From the IMG/VR virus record IMGVR_UViG_3300008117_000025, positions 62,001 through 126,000 of that record: a stretch of DNA of 64,000 nt. One strand, written 5' to 3'. Every line of letters begins with the position of its first letter. Within the stretch, counting starts at the first letter, position 1. The stretch comes from a virus. Both the position numbers and the translations under genes were made by a program. The notes beneath the pieces were generated by a model. The model ran no database searches, had not been told where the DNA came from, and saw nothing but the letters and a program-made list of their open reading frames with translations. Shown here one piece after another: positions 13,829 to 32,269 of this stretch.

Positions 13829-16800
13829 TTAAAAAGGTGCATCGTTTATTTGAAAGTGCATCCAATCTTTTCCTAATTCTCTACCAAAACTTTTCCATCC
13901 ATACTTATACCAAATATCAATAAATTGTTTATATTCTGGTTTAGAGAATAGGGCTTTTCCTGTTGGGGTATTTAATCCGTTTTCGGCGGCATAAAAATCT
14001 ATGGCAATTCCCCAAGAGTGAATCGAAGGATTACCAGGACAACATCTTTTATCTCTAGGATTATATAGACCGGAATATTGATCTAGTTTTAATTTTTTAA
14101 TTTTATCTAAACCATAAGTCGCTAATATATCTTTAAGTACTTTTTCTAAACTATCTTTTACTAATTTATGTACTTTAAAACTATTTACAGGAGTACTATC
14201 ATAATATAAAGTATAAGGAAGAGTAAGAGTTACTAATTGGCTAGAATCACCAGGTTGGCCATATTTTGAAACTACACCAGATAAATTACTTCCTACTTTT
14301 AATTTAGATTTGTTTGCTTCAATTTTCATTGCATCTTGGGTTGTTATTTTTCCGTTATTAGGATTTATTTGTATTAATTCTGAGAAGCTAAGGGTTCCTT
14401 CAGGTTCATCTAATATTATTGTTTGGGCATCAATATTAGTTGTCCAATCATTGTTTTGAATTGAATGTCCAATACCTGTAATTGTATGTCCTAATTTTGA
14501 TCCTAATGCATCTCCTTTATAGCCTCTAGGTAATAATTCTTCGGGAATTCTAAATAGGTGACCTATTACTAATCCTCCAATACCATCCATTGTGACTGAT
14601 AGCTTAGTAGGGATGATGGCTCTATTTTTGGCTTTTGATTTGGTTAGATTTTTAAAGAAATTAATTAAATCTTTTAATGAATTTTTATAATCACCTGCTT
14701 TATCAGCATCAAATTTACCATCAATAAACCAACCATATTCTTGGTCTCCAAAAAAATCATATAATGATTGTAGAGCATCAGCTACATTTTGTGCTTGACT
14801 TTTAATTTTTTCAATATCAGGTTGATTTGGATCTATTGTTGGATCATCTTTTTTAGGAATAATTCTATCAACTAAACCTTTATTAAAATCTAACATTGTA
14901 TTATTATCAGTTGCCATTGCTCCACCTCCAACTTGAGCACCAATTGCTACCGTAGAAGATTGGTCAGGAAATATTTGAGATTCTAATTTGTATGATCTAA
15001 CTGTAGATTTAGTGTTATGCATTTCTAACTGAAATAAGTTATCATATACCTCCTTTTTAGATTTAGCATCAACATAATTTACATCTATAATATATGTTGT
15101 ATCTCCTTTAATTGGGTCAATAAATAAATCAAAATTACTTACATTACCTGTTGCGGATGAAATTTCAGATAGAACACTTTTTAAAAAATTGTATAAATTA
15201 ATATCTTTTTTTTCTTTAGTATCTAAAGCTTCTAAATTATTATCTAAAGCTAATCTAAATAAGAAATTTAAATTAACATATATATTTCCAATAATACCTA
15301 GTTCTGTATCCCAATTGTCTTGATAAAAATAGGGTCTAGAAATATTTTTTATATATTGTATATTTTCAATAGCTGTAGATTGGGATTTTTCTATTTCTTT
15401 TTTTTGCTTATCTAATTCTGCCTGTTGTTTAGCATCCTCAGCACGTTGAGCTGCTACAGGATCTGATTTGGTAGATTCAACATTAGATCCAAAAGCTTCG
15501 TTAACTTGTTGTGTACTTAAATTAGTAAGACGACTAGTTGTTAAGAAACTAAATAATGAGGTACTACCTCCAACACCAGAAGCAGCTAATGATTTTCCTA
15601 ATTTAGTATTATCAATATTATCTCCTTCATCAATAGCAACATTAATTAAATCTGTATATTGTGGCTTAACAACTTTATAACTAACATCTTTTAACTTTTC
15701 GTAATGGCGTTTAGTTAACGCTTTAATTGTATCTGGATCTTGTTGGGTTACTCTTTCAAGATAATCTACAACTGCTTGTTTATCTTTAATTTTTTTAGTA
15801 GGAATTGATATATAGTATAATTGGTCTAATACACTATCTAATTGGACATCACTTAATTTACTTGGAAATGTTATTAAATTATTAGATCCTGTTACATTTG
15901 ATGGTATTATAGTATCTGGATTGACTTTAAATCCATTAGCCCAAACGGGATTTTTGATAATGCAAATTGTTGGATCTACAGATAATTGAAGGGGATGAGC
16001 TGAGCAGAGTAAATAGCCGTCTCCAGTTAATGGGTTGGGTTTAGTATTGCCAATTGCATATTCTCTATCTAATACAGAGCATTTTAAAAATGCTTTTTTG
16101 CTATTAGAATCTACAAAAGTAACATAATTGTTGATTAAATTACATAAACCTTCTAAAGTAATATATACTTGTTCATCACTTGCTCCAATTTTTCCATTAC
16201 TACTAGCCTCTCCTTGCCCTCCAGCAATGTTAAGAGTTTTTTTATATAAATCATAATAACTAGTAGTACCATCGGGGCGACCATCAGCAATTACAAAATT
16301 GGCTCCTTCATCTTGTGTGCCTGGTTTTTTTAGGTTCATTATAGTAAATAATTCATAGAATAATCCTGCAAGGATATTTTTAGAATATATTTTCTTTATA
16401 TCAGGAAAACTTGATATTGATATTCCTTCTACTCTAGGTGCTATCAATCCTTTTTTAGATATCTCAGATATATTATTAAACGGAGCATAATTTACCTTTA
16501 ATGATTCTAATACTTCTCCTACTGATATTATAGTGGTGGTGCAATCATATCCTCCATCTTCGCGGGCAGACCAGCTATAATTTTTAATATATCCAAACAT
16601 TGCATCATAATTACCACCATAGGTTTCAACAGCGGTTTTATATATGCTTTCAAATAACTGATCTTTAGTTGGTTTCTTATTTATGATATCATTAGTAGAA
16701 AAATCTATATTGCTTTTTAATTTTTTATCACTACCTAAATAAGGTGCCCATCCCCATTCTATTAAAGCAGTATAGCCTGGGCGCATATATAGAAGTTCTA

Positions 16801-17209
16801 GGTCTTCTAGTTGTTTAATATCCCAAGCAACAAATTTAACTTCAACTTCTCTTAAAGAACCATATGCTGATTTGGGTTTTATGTCTACTCCTGTAATACC
16901 AGGCATGGGGCGAATACCCAATCTGTGGGGATTGCCATTAGGAGTAGCAATATCATATGAGGAATTTTTAGTCAAAACACCAGCTCTTAATTGGAGTTGA
17001 TTTTCGTATAATACTCCTCCTTGTAATATATATTTTTTAGCTAGAGCCCCGTTATCTTCATTTACATCTACTGCAGAAGACATTCTTACCCATGCATTGC
17101 GAGCATTAAAATATTGAATAGCATCAGGAGTACGTTCAAATATGGCTTCTTGCCTAGCCTTTAATTGATTTTGTATTTCAGGTTTAAACGTATCTTTAAA
17201 TATAGACAT
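13829..17209 (-). CDS. baseplate hub protein with C-terminal M15 peptidase
   Basis: This is a 1126-residue protein following the LysM-type baseplate gene. The C-terminal ~120 residues form an M15 (VanY/endolysin-type) peptidase with the zinc motif S-x-H1064-x6-D1071 (SIHSWGIAIDF) and H1118 (DWMHFQI). This would cut peptidoglycan peptides during tail penetration. The large remainder is likely a gp27/gp5-like hub: the N-terminus deals with gridded beta domains, and residues about 570-600 (QRAEDAKQQAELDKQKKEIE) form a charged helical linker. In T4 the hub lysozyme is a muramidase, so here an unrelated peptidase takes that role. The hub assignment rests on position and size. Confidence 0.78.
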   Translation of the reverse strand: MSIFKDTFKPEIQNQLKARQEAIFERTPDAIQYFNARNAWVRMSSAVDVNEDNGALAKKYILQGGVLYENQLQLRAGVLTKNSSYDIATPNGNPHRLGIRPMPGITGVDIKPKSAYGSLREVEVKFVAWDIKQLEDLELLYMRPGYTALIEWGWAPYLGSDKKLKSNIDFSTNDIINKKPTKDQLFESIYKTAVETYGGNYDAMFGYIKNYSWSAREDGGYDCTTTIISVGEVLESLKVNYAPFNNISEISKKGLIAPRVEGISISSFPDIKKIYSKNILAGLFYELFTIMNLKKPGTQDEGANFVIADGRPDGTTSYYDLYKKTLNIAGGQGEASSNGKIGASDEQVYITLEGLCNLINNYVTFVDSNSKKAFLKCSVLDREYAIGNTKPNPLTGDGYLLCSAHPLQLSVDPTICIIKNPVWANGFKVNPDTIIPSNVTGSNNLITFPSKLSDVQLDSVLDQLYYISIPTKKIKDKQAVVDYLERVTQQDPDTIKALTKRHYEKLKDVSYKVVKPQYTDLINVAIDEGDNIDNTKLGKSLAASGVGGSTSLFSFLTTSRLTNLSTQQVNEAFGSNVESTKSDPVAAQRAEDAKQQAELDKQKKEIEKSQSTAIENIQYIKNISRPYFYQDNWDTELGIIGNIYVNLNFLFRLALDNNLEALDTKEKKDINLYNFLKSVLSEISSATGNVSNFDLFIDPIKGDTTYIIDVNYVDAKSKKEVYDNLFQLEMHNTKSTVRSYKLESQIFPDQSSTVAIGAQVGGGAMATDNNTMLDFNKGLVDRIIPKKDDPTIDPNQPDIEKIKSQAQNVADALQSLYDFFGDQEYGWFIDGKFDADKAGDYKNSLKDLINFFKNLTKSKAKNRAIIPTKLSVTMDGIGGLVIGHLFRIPEELLPRGYKGDALGSKLGHTITGIGHSIQNNDWTTNIDAQTIILDEPEGTLSFSELIQINPNNGKITTQDAMKIEANKSKLKVGSNLSGVVSKYGQPGDSSQLVTLTLPYTLYYDSTPVNSFKVHKLVKDSLEKVLKDILATYGLDKIKKLKLDQYSGLYNPRDKRCCPGNPSIHSWGIAIDFYAAENGLNTPTGKALFSKPEYKQFIDIWYKYGWKSFGRELGKDWMHFQINDAPF

Positions 17210-19953: not shown

Positions 19954-22470
19954 TTATGCTACTTTATATGAGCCTTGTACTAGTGTTGAACCTACTTTTT
20001 TACCATCCATGTTGATTGATGTATCTTTACTATACAATCTATCAACAGCTGCTCTTACTTCATTGATTGCTGCTATCATTGGGGTAAGATCTATTGATGG
20101 AGAACCATCCCCACCTAATATTTTATCAGCTTTGGGGGAATTTAGGGGAATTATTGCTTCAGGACCGGCTTCACCAACAGTTGCATTATTAATTTCACCA
20201 GTTACAATACCTCCTTCAGCAAATGCTGTTCCTTTAGCTAATCTTGTTACTAAACCAACACCAGCCAATGTAGCAGCTGTTGCTAAAATAGGACCTACAG
20301 GAAATATACCTCCTAAAGCCTTCCAAGCCCCTTGAGCCACAGAAAGAACAGCATTTATTAATAATTTAGCATTCATTGCTGCTATTAAACCCCCAATGCC
20401 TAATAATATTGGAGATAATGTTTTAAATCCTTCTACTATTAAACCAACAACATAAGAAATCCCTGTAATTACAGGGCTGATAATGTTAGTAAATATAGAA
20501 GCTATATTTGATACTAGATCAAATAATTGACCAAAAGGTCCAGCTACTAGATTACCTACTACATCCTGTATTTTTAATAAAGCCGCACTAAATTTCTCTT
20601 GTATTTGTTGTCTTTCAAGAGCTTGTTTTGCTTCTTCTTCTTGTATTTGAACTAATGATTTACCACTAGCTAGTGCTTCTTCTCTTTTTCTTAATGTTTC
20701 AGCTAATTGATCTGAGGTCATACCTACAGATTCAGCTAAGGCATTTTGTTGTAACCTATTCATTTTAGTAAACTCAGCTGCTGTACCTATATTTTTAGAT
20801 AATTCTTCAGCTAAAGTAACTTGATCACCAGCTAATGCTGCTGCTCTTGCTCTTTCAAGATTTATTTGTTTACCAGTTAATAATTCAGCTTTTAATTCAT
20901 TTTCAATTGATGAACCGAAATCAAGTAATTTATCACCAGCAGCAGCAACTTGTTCTAATGTCATACCAAATGCTTTAGCAGCTACTACTGCTTTAGCAAT
21001 TTGTTCTGGGTTGTTTCCTAGATTTGCTGCTAATTGTCCCGATACTTTGGAAGCTTCAGCTAATGCTGATTTAAAGTTAATTCCGACTTTAAGTTGATTT
21101 CTTGCTGCTGTTAATCCCCTAACAAAAGAAGAATAAGTTTCTTCAGAAGTTTTACCATTCAAAACAGCAAAACGTTGAATTTGAGCAGCTTCATCTGCTT
21201 GTAGACCAACTTGTTTAGTTAATTTAACTTGTGTTTCAAGCTGATCGGCAGAATATTGGGAAACATATCCAGTTGATTGGGCTAATTCTCCAAAAGCCTC
21301 AGTTATTGATTTAGAATTAACATTAATGTTAGGAGTAACCCCTGCTATAAAAGCAAAATTTTCTCTAAGTCTATCAGATCTGTCAGCTCCATATCCTATA
21401 ATTTTACCTAAATTAACAGCCTGTTCATTGGCTTGCAGAGCTTTATCTATAATAAAAGTAAGTATTGTGACTGGGTCTGTTAGTGATTTTTTAAGGCCAA
21501 CCCCCAATCCTTTAACAAATACTCCTAATGATTTAAATTTATTACCTAGATTGTCAGTTGAAGCAACGGCTTCTTGTTTTATTTTATATGATTCTTTTTC
21601 TAATGCTATTAATCGTTCTTGAGCTTGTTCTTGTGTTATAGAATTTCCTGCTTCATCTTTACCTATTTCTGCTAATCTTTTTTTTCTTTCATTTTCTAAA
21701 AGGTCATTTTTTACTTTTTCAGTAGATAAAGCATCTTGAATAAGCTTTTTATTAAAATCTTCAACAGCTTCTGTTGCTTCACCTACATTTAAAAAACTAG
21801 CTAATGAACCTCCATATTGAGAAACAAGTTTACCTGCAGCTTGGGCTAATCCTCCTAGATCTTTTCTAGTATCAGCTATTTGCTTAGTTAAATTTAATTC
21901 TTTTTCTAAAATAGGAATACCCGAAGATATAGCTTCAGTAGCATTAATTAGAAGTTCATTTTCTTTTAGTAGTTCTTGTAGTCTAGCTTTTTGTTTTGGG
22001 GTTCTTTCATCTAATGCATTTAATGCTTCGACTTCTCTTTGACGACTTGCTTCACTAGCTTTTAATCTCTGTACAACAAAATCTAATTCTTTTTTTTCAG
22101 CAGCAAGATTATTTTTTAATTTTTTAAATTTATTATCAGTAAGGTCATTATATCCTTTTTGATAAGAATTTAAATCCTGGGCAATGTTTGTAAATTCTTT
22201 AAATGCTCCTTTGCCTATTTTTAATAAAACATTTTGATTTTTTAATTCAGCTGTTATGTCTTGAAATGTTCTATAAATATAATCAGCATTATCTACAATA
22301 TCTTCATATTGTTTGTTTAATCTATCAACATATTCATTAAGTTTTTTAGTATCATTTCCGGCATTGCGAAATGCTTCTTGAAGGTCAATACCTAAGCCAC
22401 CTGCTTCTCTTAATTTTTTGTTAAGATCTGTTAATTGTTGTTGTAATTCTTGTACTGTAGGTTCTGCCAT
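19954..22470 (-). CDS. tail tape measure protein
   Basis: This 838-residue protein sets tail length and is ejected with the DNA. Residues 1-300 are long charged coiled coils, the middle is Ala- and Leu-rich helix, and about residues 630-745 hold several hydrophobic segments (for example GPILATAATLAGVGLVTRL), the membrane-active part typical of tape measures. A Gly-rich section (FAEGGIVTGEINNATVGEAG) follows, a common feature near the C-terminus. It is directly downstream of the chaperone-like frameshift gene, the usual order. It corresponds to T4 gp29 by role. Confidence 0.88.
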   Translation of the reverse strand: MAEPTVQELQQQLTDLNKKLREAGGLGIDLQEAFRNAGNDTKKLNEYVDRLNKQYEDIVDNADYIYRTFQDITAELKNQNVLLKIGKGAFKEFTNIAQDLNSYQKGYNDLTDNKFKKLKNNLAAEKKELDFVVQRLKASEASRQREVEALNALDERTPKQKARLQELLKENELLINATEAISSGIPILEKELNLTKQIADTRKDLGGLAQAAGKLVSQYGGSLASFLNVGEATEAVEDFNKKLIQDALSTEKVKNDLLENERKKRLAEIGKDEAGNSITQEQAQERLIALEKESYKIKQEAVASTDNLGNKFKSLGVFVKGLGVGLKKSLTDPVTILTFIIDKALQANEQAVNLGKIIGYGADRSDRLRENFAFIAGVTPNINVNSKSITEAFGELAQSTGYVSQYSADQLETQVKLTKQVGLQADEAAQIQRFAVLNGKTSEETYSSFVRGLTAARNQLKVGINFKSALAEASKVSGQLAANLGNNPEQIAKAVVAAKAFGMTLEQVAAAGDKLLDFGSSIENELKAELLTGKQINLERARAAALAGDQVTLAEELSKNIGTAAEFTKMNRLQQNALAESVGMTSDQLAETLRKREEALASGKSLVQIQEEEAKQALERQQIQEKFSAALLKIQDVVGNLVAGPFGQLFDLVSNIASIFTNIISPVITGISYVVGLIVEGFKTLSPILLGIGGLIAAMNAKLLINAVLSVAQGAWKALGGIFPVGPILATAATLAGVGLVTRLAKGTAFAEGGIVTGEINNATVGEAGPEAIIPLNSPKADKILGGDGSPSIDLTPMIAAINEVRAAVDRLYSKDTSINMDGKKVGSTLVQGSYKVA

Positions 22471-22498: not shown

Positions 22499-22523
22499 AA
22501 AGCGCCTATTTTTTAGGCGCTTT
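22499..22523 (-). terminator. hairpin spanning the stop of the chaperone extension
   Basis: Ten-base arms at 22499-22508 and 22514-22523 enclose a five-base loop. The TAG stop (22506-22508) of the frameshifted frame lies within the stem. The T run that follows is short, so termination may be weak. Only ribosomes that shifted frame would reach and melt this hairpin. Confidence 0.55.
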
Positions 22524-22788
22524 AGCTACGTATGTTGGTGATTTAGATGGGGATATATTAGGACGAGATATATCTTTTCCTGATTTATTTTTCAACATAT
22601 TTTGTTGCTTTTCTGTTTCTTCTTTTTGTTTTTCGTAATATTCTCTTAATTTTTCAAATGTAAATTTACGCAACCAAAGAGGCATATTATAAACAGTATC
22701 CCAATCATATCCACCATTACTATGAAATACTATTTCATGTATTTGGGAAAATAGTATAGGTCTATATTCCAGAATCAGGCCAAAAAAA
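22506..22788 (-). CDS. 91-aa frameshift extension, gp51/chaperone-like
   Basis: The frame runs from the T7 tract (22782-22788) to TAG at 22506-22508 and has no ATG near its beginning. Its sequence includes GGYDWDTVYNMPLWLRKF and a helical KLREYYEKQKEE tail, resembling the second part of phage tail assembly chaperones and gp51-like proteins placed just before the tape measure. Entering this frame from the upstream gene needs a +1 (or -2) shift on the T7 tract, giving a 332-residue fusion. The frame is closed by a TAG about 30 bases upstream of the tract, so independent translation would need a non-ATG start or the internal ATG of NMPLW. A base-calling slip (T7 for T6) is the main alternative. 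Confidence 0.75.
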
Positions 22789-23505
22789 GTTAACAGATAT
22801 TGGAATATCTATGCCCTCCCCTACATAATCTACATCTTCTGGTATATATTTTAAATTAATGTCTGGGGATACTTTTGCATAGTATTGGCGTAGTGCTCTT
22901 GAATCTTTAGCGATTAAGTAATTATCAACAAAATCACGAATATCTTTAGCATCACGCTTACCTTCAACAGATGTAACCATATATTTTAAACGAGTTGTAA
23001 CATCAGTAGTTACATTTGGGTTAATTTTTTGCAACCCCTTAATTTCAGCTTCAATTTTTTGTTCATCACCATGTGTTAATAACTTAAAAGTAATATTGTT
23101 ACCAGAATGAGGTAGAGTGAAGGGAAATTCATTTATTCCGCGCTTATATAAAGATTCATCAATTATTTTATCTTCTAGCTTGGATAGATCAATAGTAATT
23201 TCTTTACCACCATAATTAATATTATAGTCTTTACCATAACCTAAAACACGAGCAGCAACTAATATTGCGTTTTTATCACCAATTAACAATTCGTTATAAT
23301 CAATTGGTGTAACAATTAATGATTGAAGTAATTTATCAATAACAATACCACTTTTAATGTAGTTTACATTGGTAAGGATATCTTCTTCCTTAGCTGTCAT
23401 ATACTTCATTTCAATTTCGCCTTTAGCAAGCGGTGAGGTCTCGGGGTACAATAAACCTTTTGAGGGTAATGTAACTGTTTCTGTTGGGATTTTTAATTCG
23501 GCCAT
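22762..23505 (-). CDS. gp26-like baseplate/tail assembly protein
   Basis: This 247-residue protein has the look of the T4 gp26-type family: N-terminal KIPTETVTLPSKGLLYP, then YMTAKEEDILTN and a long helical core, ending FFWPDSGI. Family members precede the tape measure and act in hub or tail assembly. Translation in the first frame stops at 22762, but a second frame overlaps the end and can be reached by a shift at the T7 tract just before the last six codons, the arrangement of tail assembly chaperones. A terminator and an ATATTTAT element lie upstream, so it starts a new transcript after the tube gene. Confidence 0.82.
   Translation of the reverse strand: MAELKIPTETVTLPSKGLLYPETSPLAKGEIEMKYMTAKEEDILTNVNYIKSGIVIDKLLQSLIVTPIDYNELLIGDKNAILVAARVLGYGKDYNINYGGKEITIDLSKLEDKIIDESLYKRGINEFPFTLPHSGNNITFKLLTHGDEQKIEAEIKGLQKINPNVTTDVTTRLKYMVTSVEGKRDAKDIRDFVDNYLIAKDSRALRQYYAKVSPDINLKYIPEDVDYVGEGIDIPISVNFFWPDSGI
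22782..22788 (-). promoter_or_regulatory. candidate frameshift site, T7 tract
   Basis: In the first frame the message reads AAC TTT TTT TGG; in the second it reads ACT TTT TTT GGC. A tRNA-Phe that slips forward by one base on the T run, before the TGG codon, enters the 91-codon extension. A -2 slip gives the same result. The site is placed exactly where chaperone shifts occur, near the end of the first frame. Confidence 0.6.
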
Positions 23506-23594: not shown

Positions 23595-24083
23595 TTAGAA
23601 GTTGAGTACACAGTAATCCATAGCGATTGTTAAGGATAAAGTAATTGCAGCATCACCCTGGCTCCAGTCATATTCTCCGAAAGTAGCTGTTTTGCAATAA
23701 GCACCTTTGATAATCCACTCACCTACTACATCACCTACTGGGCCTAGAATGTCTAGTGTTAAATCTTTCTTATAAAAGTCGGAATATCCATCACGGCCTG
23801 TTACTGATTCGTGTGCTAAACGAGCCCACTCCATTACTGCTTGTGCGCCTGATGGGGTTACGGGATCGTATAATTCTAAAGTCATATCATTCCATTCAAC
23901 TTTACCTTTTACTTTACGGTAAACGTTGATGTGATCGAGTTTAATCATATTGGCTTCAAATCCAGGAGCTGATGCCTTTTTAATTAAATATGATGGAATA
24001 CCATCAATGTACATTATGAACCTATTGGGAACTTTTGGTTCAAAAGCGGTGAACATTATTTCGTTAGCGTCTAATACTGCCAT
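23595..24083 (-). CDS. tail tube protein, gp19-like
   Basis: This is the 162-residue tube subunit whose rings form the inner channel for DNA. The sequence fits the T4 gp19 family: VPNRFIMYIDGIPSYLIKKA near the N-terminus, KVEWNDMTLELYDPVTPSG in the middle and GEYDWSQGDAAITLSLTI near the C-terminus. It directly follows the sheath gene, the normal T4-like order, and is followed by a strong terminator. Confidence 0.93.
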   Translation of the reverse strand: MAVLDANEIMFTAFEPKVPNRFIMYIDGIPSYLIKKASAPGFEANMIKLDHINVYRKVKGKVEWNDMTLELYDPVTPSGAQAVMEWARLAHESVTGRDGYSDFYKKDLTLDILGPVGDVVGEWIIKGAYCKTATFGEYDWSQGDAAITLSLTIAMDYCVLNF

Positions 24084-24133: not shown

Positions 24134-25843
24134 TTATGCAGGGAATGTAGCGCCGGTTGGTTGTACGTTAAAGTTCAAGATAATGAATTCAGCAGTCTTA
24201 GTTGGTTGGATGTAGATCTGGCCTACTAATTGGTTGCGATCAATTACATCAGGTGTATTATTGGAATCATCCATTACTACCTTGTAAGCATATAAACCTT
24301 GACGTTGTACTACTGATTCAAGGTATGGATTAACTTGAGATAAAAAGCGATTGCGAGTAACGTTAGTGTTTTGTTCAAATACTAAATTATTACCTACTTG
24401 ACCAATATAGTCTTTTAATGCAATCAACAAACGACGAACGTTTACACGGTCAAGAGCTGTTTGTTTTTTCTGCAATGTTTTCTGACCAAATACTACAACC
24501 CCTTCTCCAGGGAATGTAGCTAATGGGTTAACATTTGCTTCATATAATGTATCGCGATCGCTTTGAGATAATTTTCTTTCAGCACGTAATACTGAAGGAA
24601 CACCACCACGATTTAAACCGGCAGGTGCAAACCATTCAGCACCAACTTGGTCGTTGAATGCAAATACACCACCCATTACTGTTGGAGCGGGAGCCCATAC
24701 TGCTTTACCTAAACCTGAGCTGAATAATTGAACCCAGGGATAGTAAGTAGCTGCGTAGTTGCTTGGTTGGCCAGCAGCAGCATTAGCAGCAGCTGAAATT
24801 GAAGTACCATAAACACCGGTTCCTACAATTGCAATTGCATCACCACGTCCTTCAGCTGTTGAGATTAATTGTGAAGCAGCGCTACAATCTAAACCAACAC
24901 CAGGAGCAAGCAATACATTAAATTGGTATTCATCCTTATTAGTTAAAATACCAAAAGCAGTAACATAATCAGCCGGAGCAAATCCTTGAATATTAGTTGT
25001 AGTAATATTTTCGTTCATAAGTTGAACAGTAGCTGTTGCTGCAACAGCACCCCCAAATGAACCACTTCCTAGAGCTGGTAGGCTACCACTGTATTGGGTT
25101 GCTTTAAAATTACCGTTATTGTCAATAGAATCTACTTGTGGTTTAGATATAGATTTAACACGAATGTATTGAGAAGCATTTGCGTAAGAACCAACGTAAT
25201 TGATGATATTGTTTGTAGCATCATATACTGGTTTTGAATCGCCTATTACACGAGAAATGTAGTTAGGTAACATTGGATCTAATGATAAGTTAGCCCAAGT
25301 TTCTAGATAATTCCTTTGAGCATTATTATCATTACCAGCACGAACTGCTAAAGTAAAGGTACCGCTTCCAGTATTTACATTTGTAACTTCCCAACGAACA
25401 TTCATTGCACTACCACTAGGTAAGGCACCACCAACTTCAGTACCACCAGCACTGTTCATTTGATTGCCCCAAGCTAATGTTTCAAGTACAAATGAATTAT
25501 CAATAGAATCATCATCAATATCAGCTACTGAAGAACTTGCATAAGTACTAAGATTAGCACTGCCACTAATAATTCTGGTAACTAATAATGTCTGACCGCC
25601 ATTTTGGAAGAAATCCTTAGCGGCTAAAGAAGTTAAATATTCATAGTAGTAACTACCACTTTTGAATGTTTCTCCGAATTTGGATACATATTCACTATAA
25701 GAAGTAACATAGGTAGGAACAAATGGTTGACCCATTACGGTTGGACCAACAACAGCGGTTGCTGCACCTACGATACCTCTTTGAACCAATGATTGATCTG
25801 ATTCATTTTGGAATACGCCAGGAGATAAGATTTTTTCTGCCAT
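24134..25843 (-). CDS. contractile tail sheath protein, gp18-like
   Basis: This is the 569-residue sheath subunit that contracts to drive the tube through the envelope. The N-terminus KILSPGVFQNESDQS and the C-terminus, with PTKTAEFIILNFNVQPTG, are characteristic of sheath proteins, whose two ends link neighbouring subunits. The C-terminal domain includes WAPAGLNRGGVPSV and GEGVVVFGQKTL, which are conserved blocks. The middle (about 90-290) is a Ser/Thr/Asn-rich variable surface domain. The tube gene follows. Confidence 0.95.
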   Translation of the reverse strand: MAEKILSPGVFQNESDQSLVQRGIVGAATAVVGPTVMGQPFVPTYVTSYSEYVSKFGETFKSGSYYYEYLTSLAAKDFFQNGGQTLLVTRIISGSANLSTYASSSVADIDDDSIDNSFVLETLAWGNQMNSAGGTEVGGALPSGSAMNVRWEVTNVNTGSGTFTLAVRAGNDNNAQRNYLETWANLSLDPMLPNYISRVIGDSKPVYDATNNIINYVGSYANASQYIRVKSISKPQVDSIDNNGNFKATQYSGSLPALGSGSFGGAVAATATVQLMNENITTTNIQGFAPADYVTAFGILTNKDEYQFNVLLAPGVGLDCSAASQLISTAEGRGDAIAIVGTGVYGTSISAAANAAAGQPSNYAATYYPWVQLFSSGLGKAVWAPAPTVMGGVFAFNDQVGAEWFAPAGLNRGGVPSVLRAERKLSQSDRDTLYEANVNPLATFPGEGVVVFGQKTLQKKQTALDRVNVRRLLIALKDYIGQVGNNLVFEQNTNVTRNRFLSQVNPYLESVVQRQGLYAYKVVMDDSNNTPDVIDRNQLVGQIYIQPTKTAEFIILNFNVQPTGATFPA

Positions 25844-27007: not shown

Positions 27008-29104
27008 TTATGAGACAACCAAAATTTTCTCTAAGGTTTTTATTACTCTATCTGAAGATATTTCTTTAGAACATTCAAATTGGTGTTGTGTTCCTTTATG
27101 TACGGGGCACCAATTCCAATCACCTGCATCTAGCCTATGTGAGTTGAAACAACCCCTACATTTACCTAAAGGTGCATCAATGTGGTAACAACTAGTAGGT
27201 TCAGTATATTCTTCAGTAAAGCCAGATACTATTATTGTAGGTGTATCTGTAGCCCATGATAGCCAACTTAATCCACTGCTAATTCCTATAAATGCTTCAG
27301 ATTCATTAAGTACTTTTACAGTTGATTCCATATCAAATGAGTCAGGATACTTAATTCCAGTTGGGTTTTTATTTCCCATATATCCGTTTTCTTCTCTAGA
27401 TAACATTACTACTTCATATCCTTGATCTTTACACCAATCAACTACTTCTTGCCACCCTGTTGGATTATTCCAATATTTAGCTTGTGCTGTACTGTGAACA
27501 GCAATAGCAATTTGTTTTTTCTTTGCAACTAATGGCTTTTTTAATTTTGGTTTTACTTCTATAAAATCTAATCCTAGAATATCAGATGCTGTTTTCTGAA
27601 GGTTTTGTTGTTTAATGTCAAAAGGATTTTTATTAAAGTCAACATTATCATCACTATTGTAAAACCACCCTATAACATACATTGCGTATAAATTGTAAAC
27701 TGTATCTCCCGGTTTAACAAATTCAATTTCTGGGTATTGTGATTGGAAGAAATAATTATGAAATGTAGAGCAAATAACTTTACATTTGTGTTTTTTTCTA
27801 AATTCTTCAACATATGGAAACCAAGCTAAAGTATCACCCAATGATTTAGAATCTAAAGCAATATATACTCTTTTATCTTTAAGATCTAAATCATGTTGAT
27901 ATAATAAATTACCATTCTCATCTTCAATCTTTATTCTCCAATCTATATAATATTGTTTACTTGTTCTAACCCAACAATTACTTTCTATTTCTTGAGAATA
28001 TTCTACTGTGTTTGTTTTTTTATTAATAAAGCTTACTTTATGTTTTTTATAAGGTGAGTCTAACACTTCAGCAAAAGGACCATTAATAAAATTAATATTA
28101 AATTTAGGAATGTTTACTTTTGAAGGTATTCCTAGTTTTTTTGTTGATTTATAAATAGATATTAATTGATCTTTCATATTTATTTTATTGTCTTCATATT
28201 TTTTTAATAAATCTTTTGTTCTATTTTTCCAAGATAAATCTAATGCCTGTTGTCTTGCCCTAGATGAATATAATGTATGTGAATTAAATTTAATTTTATT
28301 AAAAGCATCAACAATTTCATCTACATCTCGATTTACAGCTATCATTCCCTTTAGTAAGTTATTATCCTCAAAAGTTCCAATAACAGGTAAGCCAGAAGCT
28401 AACGCTTCTAATAATGTTAAATTAGGATGTCCAGCCTCTAATATAGAAGCATGGATAAATACACTATGTTCTTTGTATATATTTTTTAATTGTTCTTCAT
28501 TAAGATCATATAAAATAGTTAATTTATCATAATCTGAAGGGAAGGTATCAAAATAGTTTTTATTATTACTTGGTCCGGCTATTGTAATAGGTAAATCTAG
28601 TTGTTTTGCTGCTTCAATAGCATATCCAAATCCTTTTCTGTCTTCGGCTTGATTATGAATAAATCCATTATTTGCTACACATAATAATTTGTGTTCTTTA
28701 AATTCTCCCGGAGTAAAATAGTCTGTATTTACTCCATGTGAAAAATATTCAGGTATTCCTTCAAAGTAATCAACTAAAAATTTAGCAGGCACAAAGGCTT
28801 TTTTAGCATTCTTGATTGCTTGTAAATTTTCTTTATAGGCAGTAGAATCTTTTCCATATAAAAAGGCATGATGGTCATGCATAGTAAAATAATATGGTAT
28901 TCCACGTTCATGTGCTAAATTAGCTAAATTAGCAACATGAATATGTACTACATCATAATCTTTTACATCATCTAAATATAATATTTGTGAATCATGTCCT
29001 AATTCTAATAGGGCATTGTGTGTCTCCCATATAATTTTTTCTACGGCTCCCCATCCATTTGGGGGAATAGGAATTAAACCAGGCGTAACATTAATTATTT
29101 TCAT
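27008..29104 (-). CDS. GT4 glycosyltransferase fused to TibC-like heptosyltransferase
   Basis: The 698-residue protein has two parts. Residues 1 to ~290 resemble a GT4 enzyme (N-terminal PPNGWGAVEKIIWE and the donor-site HPNLTLLEALASGLPVIG near 235). Residues ~395-698 resemble bacterial autotransporter heptosyltransferases (TibC/Aah family): KSLGDTLAWFPYVEEF, ISSGLSWLSWATDTP, and the late metal-finger cysteines C649, C652, C666 and C678. Family members attach heptose to Ser residues of adhesins. Next to genes for long Ser/Thr-rich fibres, this suggests glycosylation of phage proteins. The sugar donor and target are inferred. It shares four bases with the upstream GT2 gene. Confidence 0.82.
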   Translation of the reverse strand: MKIINVTPGLIPIPPNGWGAVEKIIWETHNALLELGHDSQILYLDDVKDYDVVHIHVANLANLAHERGIPYYFTMHDHHAFLYGKDSTAYKENLQAIKNAKKAFVPAKFLVDYFEGIPEYFSHGVNTDYFTPGEFKEHKLLCVANNGFIHNQAEDRKGFGYAIEAAKQLDLPITIAGPSNNKNYFDTFPSDYDKLTILYDLNEEQLKNIYKEHSVFIHASILEAGHPNLTLLEALASGLPVIGTFEDNNLLKGMIAVNRDVDEIVDAFNKIKFNSHTLYSSRARQQALDLSWKNRTKDLLKKYEDNKINMKDQLISIYKSTKKLGIPSKVNIPKFNINFINGPFAEVLDSPYKKHKVSFINKKTNTVEYSQEIESNCWVRTSKQYYIDWRIKIEDENGNLLYQHDLDLKDKRVYIALDSKSLGDTLAWFPYVEEFRKKHKCKVICSTFHNYFFQSQYPEIEFVKPGDTVYNLYAMYVIGWFYNSDDNVDFNKNPFDIKQQNLQKTASDILGLDFIEVKPKLKKPLVAKKKQIAIAVHSTAQAKYWNNPTGWQEVVDWCKDQGYEVVMLSREENGYMGNKNPTGIKYPDSFDMESTVKVLNESEAFIGISSGLSWLSWATDTPTIIVSGFTEEYTEPTSCYHIDAPLGKCRGCFNSHRLDAGDWNWCPVHKGTQHQFECSKEISSDRVIKTLEKILVVS

Positions 29105-30201
29105 TTTATTATATTAATAATTGATTGATAAGCTGCAAAATAATAACATTGATAATATTGAGGTATTCTAGATAATAATATATTAGTATATGGATTTTCG
29201 GCTTGGTTCCAAATTACAAGTTGGCATTTTTTTATGTTGTATTGCCTATCAGTATTTAAAAAATAATCTAGATCAGATTCATCTCTTAATACACAAACTA
29301 ATGCATCCTCATCTCCATCTATTTTATTTATATTTAATTCATGATCAAAAAATAATTCTTTAAGTAATGAATATTTTTTAAAATCTAATTGTCTATCTAA
29401 GTAAACTATTTTTTGTTGAGTATTTACATTATTTAAATGATGATCCATTAAACATAAAGATTCTTTATGAATAGGTTCAAAATATCTATTAAATGTATCT
29501 ATATCTTTATTAATACGCCTATTATTAACTTTTTTTATTAATTCACTACCTTCATCTACAGATTCATTTGCATAGAAGGTATGAGATATAGAATTTTCTC
29601 TATAGTTATAATAATATAAGTTTCTAGGGAGATGAAGTATTTTACCTTGTTCCTCTAAAGTACACAATATAGCTAAATCATTATAATAATATTTCATCCA
29701 ACCATTTGGATTAAAATCATAATCTATATTTGGGTTATTTCTCCATGCTCTTAAATAAGTTAAATAACCACAAGTCATATTTTTTTGGTCTGTAAAATCG
29801 GGATTGTGAAAATTCATCCAGTTTCCATCTTCTCTAAATGCGTTTCCAGCACCAGCAATTGCTATTGTATCTGGAAATTTGGTGAAGAAGTGATGGTATA
29901 CTTCTAATGCTTTAGGTAGAGGATAATCATCTTGATCTGCTTGTATTATTATTTCTGCTTCTTTGCAAAAATTTTGTGGGTTATAAAACATTTCTTTTTT
30001 GAAAGATTGTTCTACATACTTTACCTTTCTATCCCTACTAGAAATATATGATAAAATTTCTTTAGCATCTTCCGCATCAGATGAAAAATCGTCAGTAACT
30101 ATCCATTCCCAATTTGTATATGTTTGGGATTTTATTTTCTCATATAGTCTAGAAATAAAATGAGAACCATTATAAAAACTAGTAATTATAGTAAATTTCA
30201 T
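29101..30201 (-). CDS. GT2-family glycosyltransferase
   Basis: The N-terminal domain (FTIITSFYNGSHFISRLYEK, a VTDDFSSD segment, and ADQDDYPLP near residue 92) is a GT-A fold family 2 transferase, with the DxD metal-binding motif. The C-terminal ~110 residues (from about 255) look like a separate, smaller domain with no clear match. It lies between two unknown GT-A-like genes and the heptosyltransferase fusion in one tightly packed run. Confidence 0.85.
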   Translation of the reverse strand: MKFTIITSFYNGSHFISRLYEKIKSQTYTNWEWIVTDDFSSDAEDAKEILSYISSRDRKVKYVEQSFKKEMFYNPQNFCKEAEIIIQADQDDYPLPKALEVYHHFFTKFPDTIAIAGAGNAFREDGNWMNFHNPDFTDQKNMTCGYLTYLRAWRNNPNIDYDFNPNGWMKYYYNDLAILCTLEEQGKILHLPRNLYYYNYRENSISHTFYANESVDEGSELIKKVNNRRINKDIDTFNRYFEPIHKESLCLMDHHLNNVNTQQKIVYLDRQLDFKKYSLLKELFFDHELNINKIDGDEDALVCVLRDESDLDYFLNTDRQYNIKKCQLVIWNQAENPYTNILLSRIPQYYQCYYFAAYQSIINIIK

Positions 30202-30202
30202 A

Positions 30203-31186
30203 TTATTTAAATTCTACAAAGCTATTGCTATTAATTATTTGATCTTTTGTATATGTTATAACAGTATTTCCTAATCTTATAGTAAGATGGTTATTTGATT
30301 GTAAATGAGAAGGGAGTGGATTGGATTCATATTGACTTAGTAAATTTATAGTATCAATAAATTCATCATTTATATATAAATCTGCATATTGATTTTCATG
30401 AACAATATCAATACTATTCATATAAAAATAAGCAAAATCTGATGTGTTTTTTATTTTTAATAATTTAATATCAAGCTGATTGTTATCATCTTTAAGTCTG
30501 TTAATGTTTATTTTACTATTGGTAAAATAGTCATAGACTTGAGTTCCTTGTATTAATAGAGCATTATCTAAATAATTGTTTTGTTTTAAATTACAATAAA
30601 AGAAATTCTCTAATACTCCAAAACTTCCGATTTGACCACATAAATTTTGATAATCACCTACTGTTTTACATATAGGAAAAACCTTATTGAAAAAATCTAC
30701 TTTAGTGTAGAAAAATATTGTTTGTATACAATTATCAATTAAAAAGAAAAATGCTTCTTTATTGTTTTTTATTGTTTCTAATTTGGTATTTTTTAGTTGT
30801 TCTATGTCTTCTTTAGAAAATATAGAATCCCCTTCTACATAATAAAATCCATCATAATAATCTTTAATAAACGAAACTGCGCTCATCATAGATTTATATA
30901 TAGCGTATGAGTGATGATTATGGCCATTTTCACCATAATGATATTCTAAATAAAATTTAGGAGTATGAACGTAAAAATAAACATTTTCATTTATAAAAAA
31001 CTCATTTCTAATATCGTAAATATAATAATTTACTAATGATTGTATTTCTATATCTGCAGGATAATGAGTTACAAGTAATATATCAAAATGTTGATTTAAA
31101 CTTAATATTGTATCTTTTAATATTTGTTTTCTACTATCAGTAGAAGGATATCCACCTATAACAACAAGATCTCTATTATTTGACAT
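30203..31186 (-). CDS. putative glycosyltransferase, paralogue A
   Basis: The 327-residue protein begins with a VVIGGYPSTDSRKQIL segment, then IYDIRNEFF, and has FYYVEGDSIFS (about residue 115), which resembles the DxD/ExD nucleotide-sugar site of GT-A enzymes. The C-terminal ~90 residues form a beta-rich domain (FAYFYMNSIDIVHENQYADL and onwards). It is related in layout to the next upstream protein (31190-32269). I cannot place it in a named family; a glycosyltransferase role is inferred from motif and context. Confidence 0.6.
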   Translation of the reverse strand: MSNNRDLVVIGGYPSTDSRKQILKDTILSLNQHFDILLVTHYPADIEIQSLVNYYIYDIRNEFFINENVYFYVHTPKFYLEYHYGENGHNHHSYAIYKSMMSAVSFIKDYYDGFYYVEGDSIFSKEDIEQLKNTKLETIKNNKEAFFFLIDNCIQTIFFYTKVDFFNKVFPICKTVGDYQNLCGQIGSFGVLENFFYCNLKQNNYLDNALLIQGTQVYDYFTNSKININRLKDDNNQLDIKLLKIKNTSDFAYFYMNSIDIVHENQYADLYINDEFIDTINLLSQYESNPLPSHLQSNNHLTIRLGNTVITYTKDQIINSNSFVEFK

Positions 31187-31189
31187 AAT

Positions 31190-32269
31190 TTAATTTAAAA
31201 CAAGTATGTTATTTATTAAATGTATATTATCTTTATTAATAATTACAGATCTAGTTTGATGATCATTCATAGTAATTTGTACTTCTACATTTTCTTCTGT
31301 TAAATCAAACGTTTCTACATAATTATCATTACTACTATATAAGTTATGTTCTATAATTTGTGGTTCTTGATTATTTCTTAGTATTTTAACAATAGATTTA
31401 TTATTATTTTCTGAACTACAATTCCATGTTATTATAGCAAATTTAGTATTGTCTGTAGGGGTATATTGTGGATCAACTCCTTCAACCGTATATCCTACTC
31501 TATGAATAGATGATATAAATCCATCTATTATCAGATCAGATTCTGAGGGGGATATAAGGGTATTCCAGGAAGAATCAGGGAAATCATCAAATATTATATT
31601 TGCTTGTTTATTTACTACATTATCAAACCCTCCTTCTGAGGATCTAACTATATTAAGAACAAACTCTTCAGCAATCATGAAATTTTCATCACTATTGAAA
31701 TTTCGTTTTGCTATAATATAATCATCTTCATTGTTTATTTTGGGGAAAATTTCAGTAAAATAATCTAAAGCAAAATACCAGAATTGGAAACAAATATATT
31801 TGTTTTGGTTTATATAGATGTATCCCTTTTTATTTTGTTCTTGGGTTTCAGCTATAATATTTTTAACATTTTCTATACTAGGAACTGTACAGTCATATTC
31901 TATTCTAAAAAAATGGGTATAACCTAAAGATAAGGCTAAATTAGTAGAATGATATAAATTAGACAAAACAGACAAACCATGTTTTTGAAATGCTTTAATT
32001 GCTATTGAAAAATATTTGTGGTTATCTCTATACCACATAGCAATAGTTTCTACATCTGAATAGTCTTTTTTAAATAGTCTGTTATTGTGATCGTATAGAA
32101 GATAATCTACTTCATCAATTAATGCTTGTTCAAATTTACTGTTTGTCACCAACATTATGGGGAGACCAGTTTTTTTAATAGAAGATAAATAATTTTTAAA
32201 AGTTCTTACACAATTGTCATTGTGAAAAAAAGCATCTACTATTATAATAGGTTTTATTTCTGGAGGCAT
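31190..32269 (-). CDS. putative glycosyltransferase, paralogue B
   Basis: The 359-residue protein has the same plan as its neighbour: IIIVDAFFHNDNCVRTFKNY at the N-terminus, a LYDHNNRLF segment, THFFRIEYDCTVPS near residue 120 (candidate metal/sugar site) and a C-terminal beta-rich domain ending INKDNIHLINNILVLN. The C-terminal domains of the two proteins share the pattern of alternating short beta strands. It sits between the four-domain transferase and paralogue A, separated by a few bases. Confidence 0.6.
   Translation of the reverse strand: MPPEIKPIIIVDAFFHNDNCVRTFKNYLSSIKKTGLPIMLVTNSKFEQALIDEVDYLLYDHNNRLFKKDYSDVETIAMWYRDNHKYFSIAIKAFQKHGLSVLSNLYHSTNLALSLGYTHFFRIEYDCTVPSIENVKNIIAETQEQNKKGYIYINQNKYICFQFWYFALDYFTEIFPKINNEDDYIIAKRNFNSDENFMIAEEFVLNIVRSSEGGFDNVVNKQANIIFDDFPDSSWNTLISPSESDLIIDGFISSIHRVGYTVEGVDPQYTPTDNTKFAIITWNCSSENNNKSIVKILRNNQEPQIIEHNLYSSNDNYVETFDLTEENVEVQITMNDHQTRSVIINKDNIHLINNILVLN

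Follow-up and report, generated by a model that had tools for sequence, protein, structure and literature searches.

The stretch of viral DNA analysed here (the window, 64,000 nucleotides) belongs to a large tailed virus of bacteria, which appears to produce a helper protein of tail assembly in two lengths. Both forms are very probably encoded by one tail assembly chaperone gene on the minus strand, through a programmed +1 ribosomal frameshift that joins a 0-frame gene of 247 codons to an extension in the +1 frame (frame B). This reading of the gene, placed before the tape measure by the first-pass annotation, finds support in the fact that both frames and the slip site are conserved and under selection. 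That ribosomes slip here, in which direction and how often, and what the protein does, are inferred.

The chaperone gene (23505–22506) follows the tail tube gene and precedes the probable tape measure gene. The features are as follows.

24134–25843, minus strand: tail sheath (context; phrog_23, E = 1.5e-72).
23595–24083, minus strand: tail tube protein (context; phrog_4542, E = 9e-22).
22762–23505, minus strand: 0-frame product of 247 aa, the short form of the tail assembly chaperone, gp26-like and of the T4_baseplate/phrog_150 type (open reading frame and phrog_150 match).
22815–22819, minus strand: GGAGG (anti-SD-like) element, 29 nt before the slip codon (synonymous-recoding test).
22809–22811, minus strand: TAG closing the +1 frame 5′ of the slip site (sequence).
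22782–22788, minus strand: T7 run containing the slip site (sequence; common to 81 of 81 loci).
22788–22786 and 22785–22783, minus strand: the two Phe codons of the slip site, 0 frame.
22785–22783, minus strand: TTT, putative slip codon in the P-site, with TGG at 22782–22780 in the A-site and 22782 as the skipped base.
22506–22781, minus strand: +1-frame extension of the long form, 91 aa and stop (omega 0.12, hhalign chain, AF2).
22762–22781, minus strand: dual-frame overlap from the slip site to the 0-frame stop (omega: +1 frame 0.37, 0 frame 1.1).
19954–22470, minus strand: probable tape measure protein, 838 aa (context; position and length; the equivalent in phage immuto is annotated as tail tape measure).

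The gp26-like frame runs from 23505 to 22762 and ends in ISVNFFWPDSGI followed by the stop at 22764–22762 (247 codons; last residues SVNFFWPDSGI), as the first-pass annotation had read it, and the junction of the two frames reads GTT AAC TTT TTT TGG CCT GAT. The second frame of 91 residues, said to be entered at the T7 tract (22788–22782), is the open reading frame 22781–22506. As had also been noted, it lacks an ATG at its start and is blocked just 5′ of the tract by the TAG at 22811–22809; from just past that TAG, it stays open until a stop ending at 22506, with no ATG, GTG or TTG ahead of its conserved core. Conceptual translation with a one-base skip gives a product of 332 aa, the length given earlier for the fusion.

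In the mechanism that we propose, the majority of ribosomes would end at 22764–22762 and release the short form. In some, the P-site Phe-tRNA on TTT 22785–22783, with TGG waiting, would shift one base forward and re-pair on the overlapping TTT, after which GGC CTG would be read in the +1 frame to give the long form. By analogy with lambda gpG/gpGT, as described in a review, the tape measure protein would be coated by many short and few long copies, and the long form might recruit tail tube subunits through its additional helical C-terminus.

In the 182,846-base record, a phrog_150-type gene and a match to frame B each occur once, so that, provided the record is complete, a long form encoded there needs the frameshift; the record may be incomplete, and a second long gene may lie outside it. 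Flavobacterium phage immuto has the matching gene order, its gene in the tube position being annotated as a tail completion protein. The gene order of Rhodothermus phage RM378 is not that of the window, and in RM378 and XacN1 the gene after the pair carries no tape measure annotation. A PHROG search at E 0.01 gave no match for the probable tape measure protein of the window, and no tRNA genes were found within the window. Elsewhere on the minus strand, adjoining the baseplate genes, 13829–17209 encodes a 1126-aa protein whose residues 975–1123 match the endolysin family phrog_17001; it is perhaps a hub protein with a peptidase domain. Four large genes at 27008–32269, also on the minus strand, lie upstream of the tail sheath gene, and by eye at least the first two are glycosyltransferase-like.

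Several observations argue for the frameshift. First, the relation between the frames is conserved. A scan of viral contigs keyed to frame B confirmed 593 loci, and a scan of bacterial genomes added one relative, in a contig of an uncultured bacterium MAG; a plasmid search for relatives gave no match. Among the best 80 of the viral loci and the bacterial one, 81 of 81 have a single CTTTTTTTGGCCTGA, the identical T7GG site and the +1 relation, with extensions of 84–95 codons. To avoid depending on frame B as the key, a second scan relied solely on patterns drawn from the N-terminal part of the gene and confirmed 594 loci, on contigs partly shared with the first. Among the best 80 of these, 79 keep the +1 frame open for 40 codons or more beyond the 0-frame stop, and in the remaining locus (L149) it is open through all 19 codons before the contig ends. 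A third scan, seeded from the relatives in Bacillus phage SP-15, Streptococcus phage GXN1 and Listeria phage LIS04, gave 35 loci, with a +1 relation in 29 and a −1 relation in 3; in the other 3, the gene leaves the contig. The first-pass annotation had proposed comparing relatives for both frames and the T tract and had named one plain gene as the outcome that would speak against a frameshift; this outcome was seen in 0 of 115 loci (108 with +1, 3 with −1, 3 leaving the contig and 1 ending early).

Second, the handover between open frames is confined to a few codons. A pattern fixing the slip codon and the next codon found 159 of 159 loci; removal of L165, in which the pattern fell elsewhere, and of duplicates and loci with short flanks left 143 distinct loci. 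Across these, counting from the codon after the slip codon, the 0 frame is free of stops from codon −30 to +2 and has many stops later, the +1 frame contains stops through codon −4 but is clear from −3 to +30, and 141 of 143 loci carry a −1-frame stop at codon +1. The handover thus falls within codons −3 to +2 (six codons). The observation is real and not an assembly error.

Third, purifying selection switches from the 0 frame to the +1 frame at the slip site. In tests on 71 loci, with 400 sampled pairs per test and pairs below 60% identity skipped, omega in the 0 frame was 0.40 upstream of the site, 1.1 in the overlap and 2.3 downstream, and in the +1 frame it was 1.08, 0.37 and 0.12, respectively. 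The −1 frame gave 1.29, 1.46 and 0.87. Because the 0 frame shows no protein-level constraint in the overlap, the last residues of the short form look dictated by the +1 frame.

Fourth, the codons of the site are more uniform than codon usage predicts. The window site is AAC TTT TTT TGG C. Among the 143 loci, which were found by a pattern fixing codons −1 and 0, codon −2 is TTT in all, codon −1 is TTT in 135 and CTT in 8, and codon 0 is TGG in 140, TAC in 2 and TTC in 1. Codon usage would place TTTTTT for the two Phe residues in about 46 of 72 close loci, and it is found in 72; in the wide loci, 41 of 72 are expected and 63 observed, the other form of codon −1 being CTT. Upstream, the comparison within the 72 close loci takes those with the most frequent residue at each position: at codon −3, all 61 Asn are written AAC, against 29% in the family background, and at codon −4, 90% of 58 Leu are written CTT, against 13%. 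The SP-15-like scan's 29 +1 loci comprise 18 with TTT TTT CGN or TTC TTT CGN, 6 with TTA/CTA TTY AAT CCC AGT, 2 with CAC or CAT, 1 with TGG and 2 without a recognized site. In the TTA/CTA TTY AAT CCC AGT loci, the slip point is more probably CCC_A; in this subgroup of SP-15-like loci (L112, L115–L117 and L121–L122), it seems to have moved downstream.

These variant sites bear on the direction of the shift, which the first-pass annotation had left as +1 or −2. The frame relation itself stood; within it, +1 is favoured. In a −2 shift, the Phe tRNA would slip two bases back on the T run and the product would be one residue longer (333 aa). TTT TTT T permits such re-pairing, phage Mu uses −2 frameshifting according to a review, and the CTT TGG variants do not separate the two directions. 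The homologous TTC TTT CGN sites speak against −2: there, a Phe tRNA slipping by −2 would place its anticodon on TCT, mispaired at the middle base. Further, UUU_CGU is a +1 site in influenza A virus, where slippage producing PA-X was demonstrated by mass spectrometry, and CTT_T (CUU_U) is the +1 motif of prfB, both according to published work. We therefore prefer +1 and regard −2 as improbable.

A separate second gene, begun at a non-ATG start or by reinitiation, is less probable still, and we consider it very unlikely. Microcystis phage Mel-JY01 is annotated in this way, with a start 5′ of the T run, and an ATG, GTG or TTG lies within the interval in 59 of 143 loci (ATG in 23, only GTG or TTG in 36). 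The other 84, the window included, have no such codon. Among the best 80 loci of the frame-B scan, there are also 6 in which one codon alone stands between the last +1-frame stop and TTT TTT GGC, and the +1-frame codons ahead of the slip site show no protein-level selection (omega 1.08). ATG-started second genes in relatives, the other outcome that the first-pass annotation had counted against a frameshift, are thus not general, yet they occur as potential starts in those 23 loci and in the distant Vibrio phage QD01, where an ATG overlaps the stop and reinitiation is possible.

Slippage of RNA polymerase on the T7 run, yielding U6 transcripts that join the frames, would suit the T7 run present in most loci of the window's clade. 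It is disfavoured, to the point of being a slim prospect, because loci and isolates with TTT CTT TGG or TTC TTT CGN keep the frame relation without a long T run; the immuto isolate, for example, has TTT CTT TGG. The variant sites CTT TGG, TTT CGN and CCC A likewise exclude a homopolymer artefact. Nothing was found to support a single plain gene broken by a sequencing or assembly indel; that reading is extremely improbable, given that the relation is repeated in independent contigs and isolate genomes and that each frame is under its own selection; the earlier argument against a simple base error is borne out by the same contigs, named isolates and variant sites.

A GGAGG element usually occupies positions −37 to −33 from the A-site codon, followed by 29 nt and then the slip codon. 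Of the close loci, 71 of 72 carry the element, and of the wide loci 48 of 72, where synonymous recoding, with amino acids fixed and this gene family's usage as the codon background, predicts 1.3 and 5.1. Across lineages, it is encoded by differing amino acids. GGAGG is thus conserved beyond coding need, a claim that rests on the recoding test, given that the window's coding strand holds 72 copies, many of them, by eye, in Gly-Gly codons; an initial idea that GGAGG is rare genome-wide was wrong. Among 38 window genes, GGAGG or AGGAG occurs at most 22 nt before the start in 1, and a four-base SD core in 4. The SD of prfB lies 3 nt upstream of its site; the spacing here is too long for a stimulator of the prfB type.

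Wide loci without GGAGG mostly have a DLTFFP-like stretch upstream. In sixteen of them (L152, L160, L162, L163, L166, L174, L176–L178, L181, L186, L190, L193, L194, L196 and L199), this stretch, a second T-rich one, lies about 52–57 nt 5′ of the slip site.

For RNA structure, 40 loci were sampled at each of eight offsets and compared with mononucleotide shuffles: the mean z ranged from −0.65 to −1.14 at the four offsets lying downstream and from +0.35 to −0.5 at the remaining four. Alifold, run on 60 of the 83 non-redundant sequences, gave no consensus structure spanning the slip site. We therefore do not claim a downstream stimulatory RNA structure.

The 0-frame protein is homologous to T4 gp26 and gp51, because all three match phrog_150 (window gene, E = 5.8e-9; gp26, E = 6.7e-71; gp51, E = 2.6e-84); direct profile comparison of the small window-family alignment with gp26 or gp51 gave no link. 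Pfam family PF12322 scores 18.5 bits on the window protein, under the cut-off of 24.5; it is above the cut-off in SP-15, RM378, QD01, XacN1, LR756508 and L116 and absent from the immuto and Mel-JY01 proteins. T4 gp26 and gp51 are themselves paralogues: hhalign gives E = 3.2e-20, and their global score of 72 compares with at most 32 in 200 shuffles. Past the end of gp26, gp51 continues in a C-terminal extension.

By profile comparison, the +1 extension resembles this C-terminal extension of gp51. In hhalign, each value being a single pairwise comparison, frame B of the window clade matches that of the SP-15 clade (A7–A9, E = 2.4e-6), SP-15-clade frame B matches the gp51 tails combined with Vibrio-type second open reading frames (A9–A10, E = 1.2e-5), and window-clade frame B matches the latter directly (A7–A10, E = 2e-4). 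Frame B against gp51 alone gives E = 0.26, with the register unchanged. Both gp51 and the QD01 second open reading frame match phrog_634, baseplate hub assembly catalyst. Frame B alone matches no Pfam family, and its best PHROG is a tail assembly chaperone (phrog_32580) at E = 0.22. Appending frame B to the window protein did not lengthen the phrog_150 match; appending it to that of LR756508 moved the end of the match from profile position 233 to 273.

AF2 models the short form with a pLDDT of 92.4 and the extension, helical in the model, with a pLDDT of 78. A sequence search of the PDB with the fusion gave a best E of only 0.44, and Foldseek on the short-form model gave E-values of at least 0.81. 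Compared with 521 PDB chains in VIA, the short-form model is closest to YqbN (Z 6.0, r.m.s.d. 4.1, 87 aligned), in a range, Z 4–6, that can arise by chance. YqbN we take to be a tail assembly chaperone. Next come the HK97 tail assembly chaperone 2ob9 (Z 5.0, r.m.s.d. 4.6, 98 aligned), again at a Z where chance arrangements occur, and the PICI protein of unknown function 5ir0 (Z 4.1, r.m.s.d. 3.2, 69 aligned), with the following chain at Z 2.1. The fold search with frame B gave only unrelated proteins, largely ones involved in cell death, at VIA Z values up to 5.2; these matches were taken as chance.

We examined the junctions in 15 phage records, the T4 gp26/gp51 type excluded. A clear +1 relation is present in 7 (immuto, Microcystis Mel-JY01, Rhodothermus RM378, Bacillus SP-15, Listeria LIS04, Streptococcus GXN1 and uncultured LR756508) and a weak one, an open +1 frame without a recognized site, in Alishewanella Slickus01. 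The remaining 7 have a −1 relation: Vibrio QD01, Xanthomonas XacN1, Prochlorococcus P-HM2, Synechococcus S-CAM1, Pelagibacter HTVC008M, Stenotrophomonas Bhz51 and uncultured LR756511. In P-HM2, S-CAM1, HTVC008M, Bhz51 and QD01 (L216, L217, L218, L221 and L089), the homologous FF codons lie in T TTT TTC or T TTT TTT and are followed by the −1 extension; no clear FF site is present in LR756511. The short open reading frame at the −1 extension is annotated as gp51 or baseplate hub assembly catalyst in P-HM2 and HTVC008M. Six of the records with a clear +1 relation are annotated, and in all six the fusion is left out, so that the long chaperone is missing from their protein sets.

The short and long chaperones thus seem to arise here through a +1 shift, in cyanophages and Vibrio phages through what looks like a −1 shift at the same FF codons, and in T4 from two genes. 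A bolder joint proposal, possible rather than probable, would be that the direction of frameshifting changed in evolution at a homologous pair of Phe codons (+1 in window-type and SP-15-like phages, −1 in cyanophages and Vibrio T4-type phages, two genes in T4), both proteins being kept while the decoding mechanism was replaced, and that GGAGG about 29 nt 5′ acts in the +1 clade as a stimulator of an undescribed kind, in a phage whose genes mostly lack an SD. The family points to homologues of the two T4 genes being produced from a single gene by a +1 shift, and it supplies many natural +1 sites (UUU_UGG, CUU_UGG, UUU_CGN and CCC_A) for studying bacterial +1 rates.

According to a review, the G–T frameshift is conserved in long-tailed phages except T4 (Atkins 2016). 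T4 gp26 and gp51 are reported to be tail assembly chaperones in another paper, the title of which proposes a mechanism other than frameshifting for T4-like phages (Vladimirov et al. 2022); −1 poly-T signals of T4-like phages are in print in a source citing that work. Published work also describes +1 frameshifts in tail chaperones as very likely in HSTV-2 and proposed in the HF1 haloviruses. Within the portions of open-licence PMC papers covered, we found no description of a +1 shift in the phrog_150 family, which may be published elsewhere.

Among known systems, lambda gpG/gpGT is likened by role: the frameshift there is −1, whereas here it would be +1 and the first domain is a 247-aa T4_baseplate-family protein. 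T4 gp26 and gp51 share the homologous protein, and the gp51 C-terminus resembles the window's +1 extension, but T4 has two separate genes and the window's record, which may be incomplete, has one, with no separate gp51-like gene found. In Enterobacter phage EC-F2 (L209), the gp51-like gene follows a gp54-like gene, unlike in T4. P-HM2, S-CAM1, HTVC008M, Bhz51 and QD01 share the gene role and a T-rich site with the window and its relatives, in which the shift is instead +1 and the usual next codon is TGG, TAC or CGN. For the HF1-group haloviruses, a +1 shift has been proposed at TTT-CGC in tail chaperones (PMC7230728), which shares role, direction and the SP-15-like TTT_CGN motif; for halovirus HF2, homology is not supported, its proteins matching phrog_14268 and phrog_12163 and none matching phrog_150 at E 0.01. 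Finally, published accounts of prfB (CUU_U) and influenza PA-X (UUU_CGU) describe P-site slippage on YUU_U or UUU_C, like that proposed for the window site, although, unlike prfB, the window has no SD 3 nt upstream and carries the sense codon TGG, not a stop, in the A-site.
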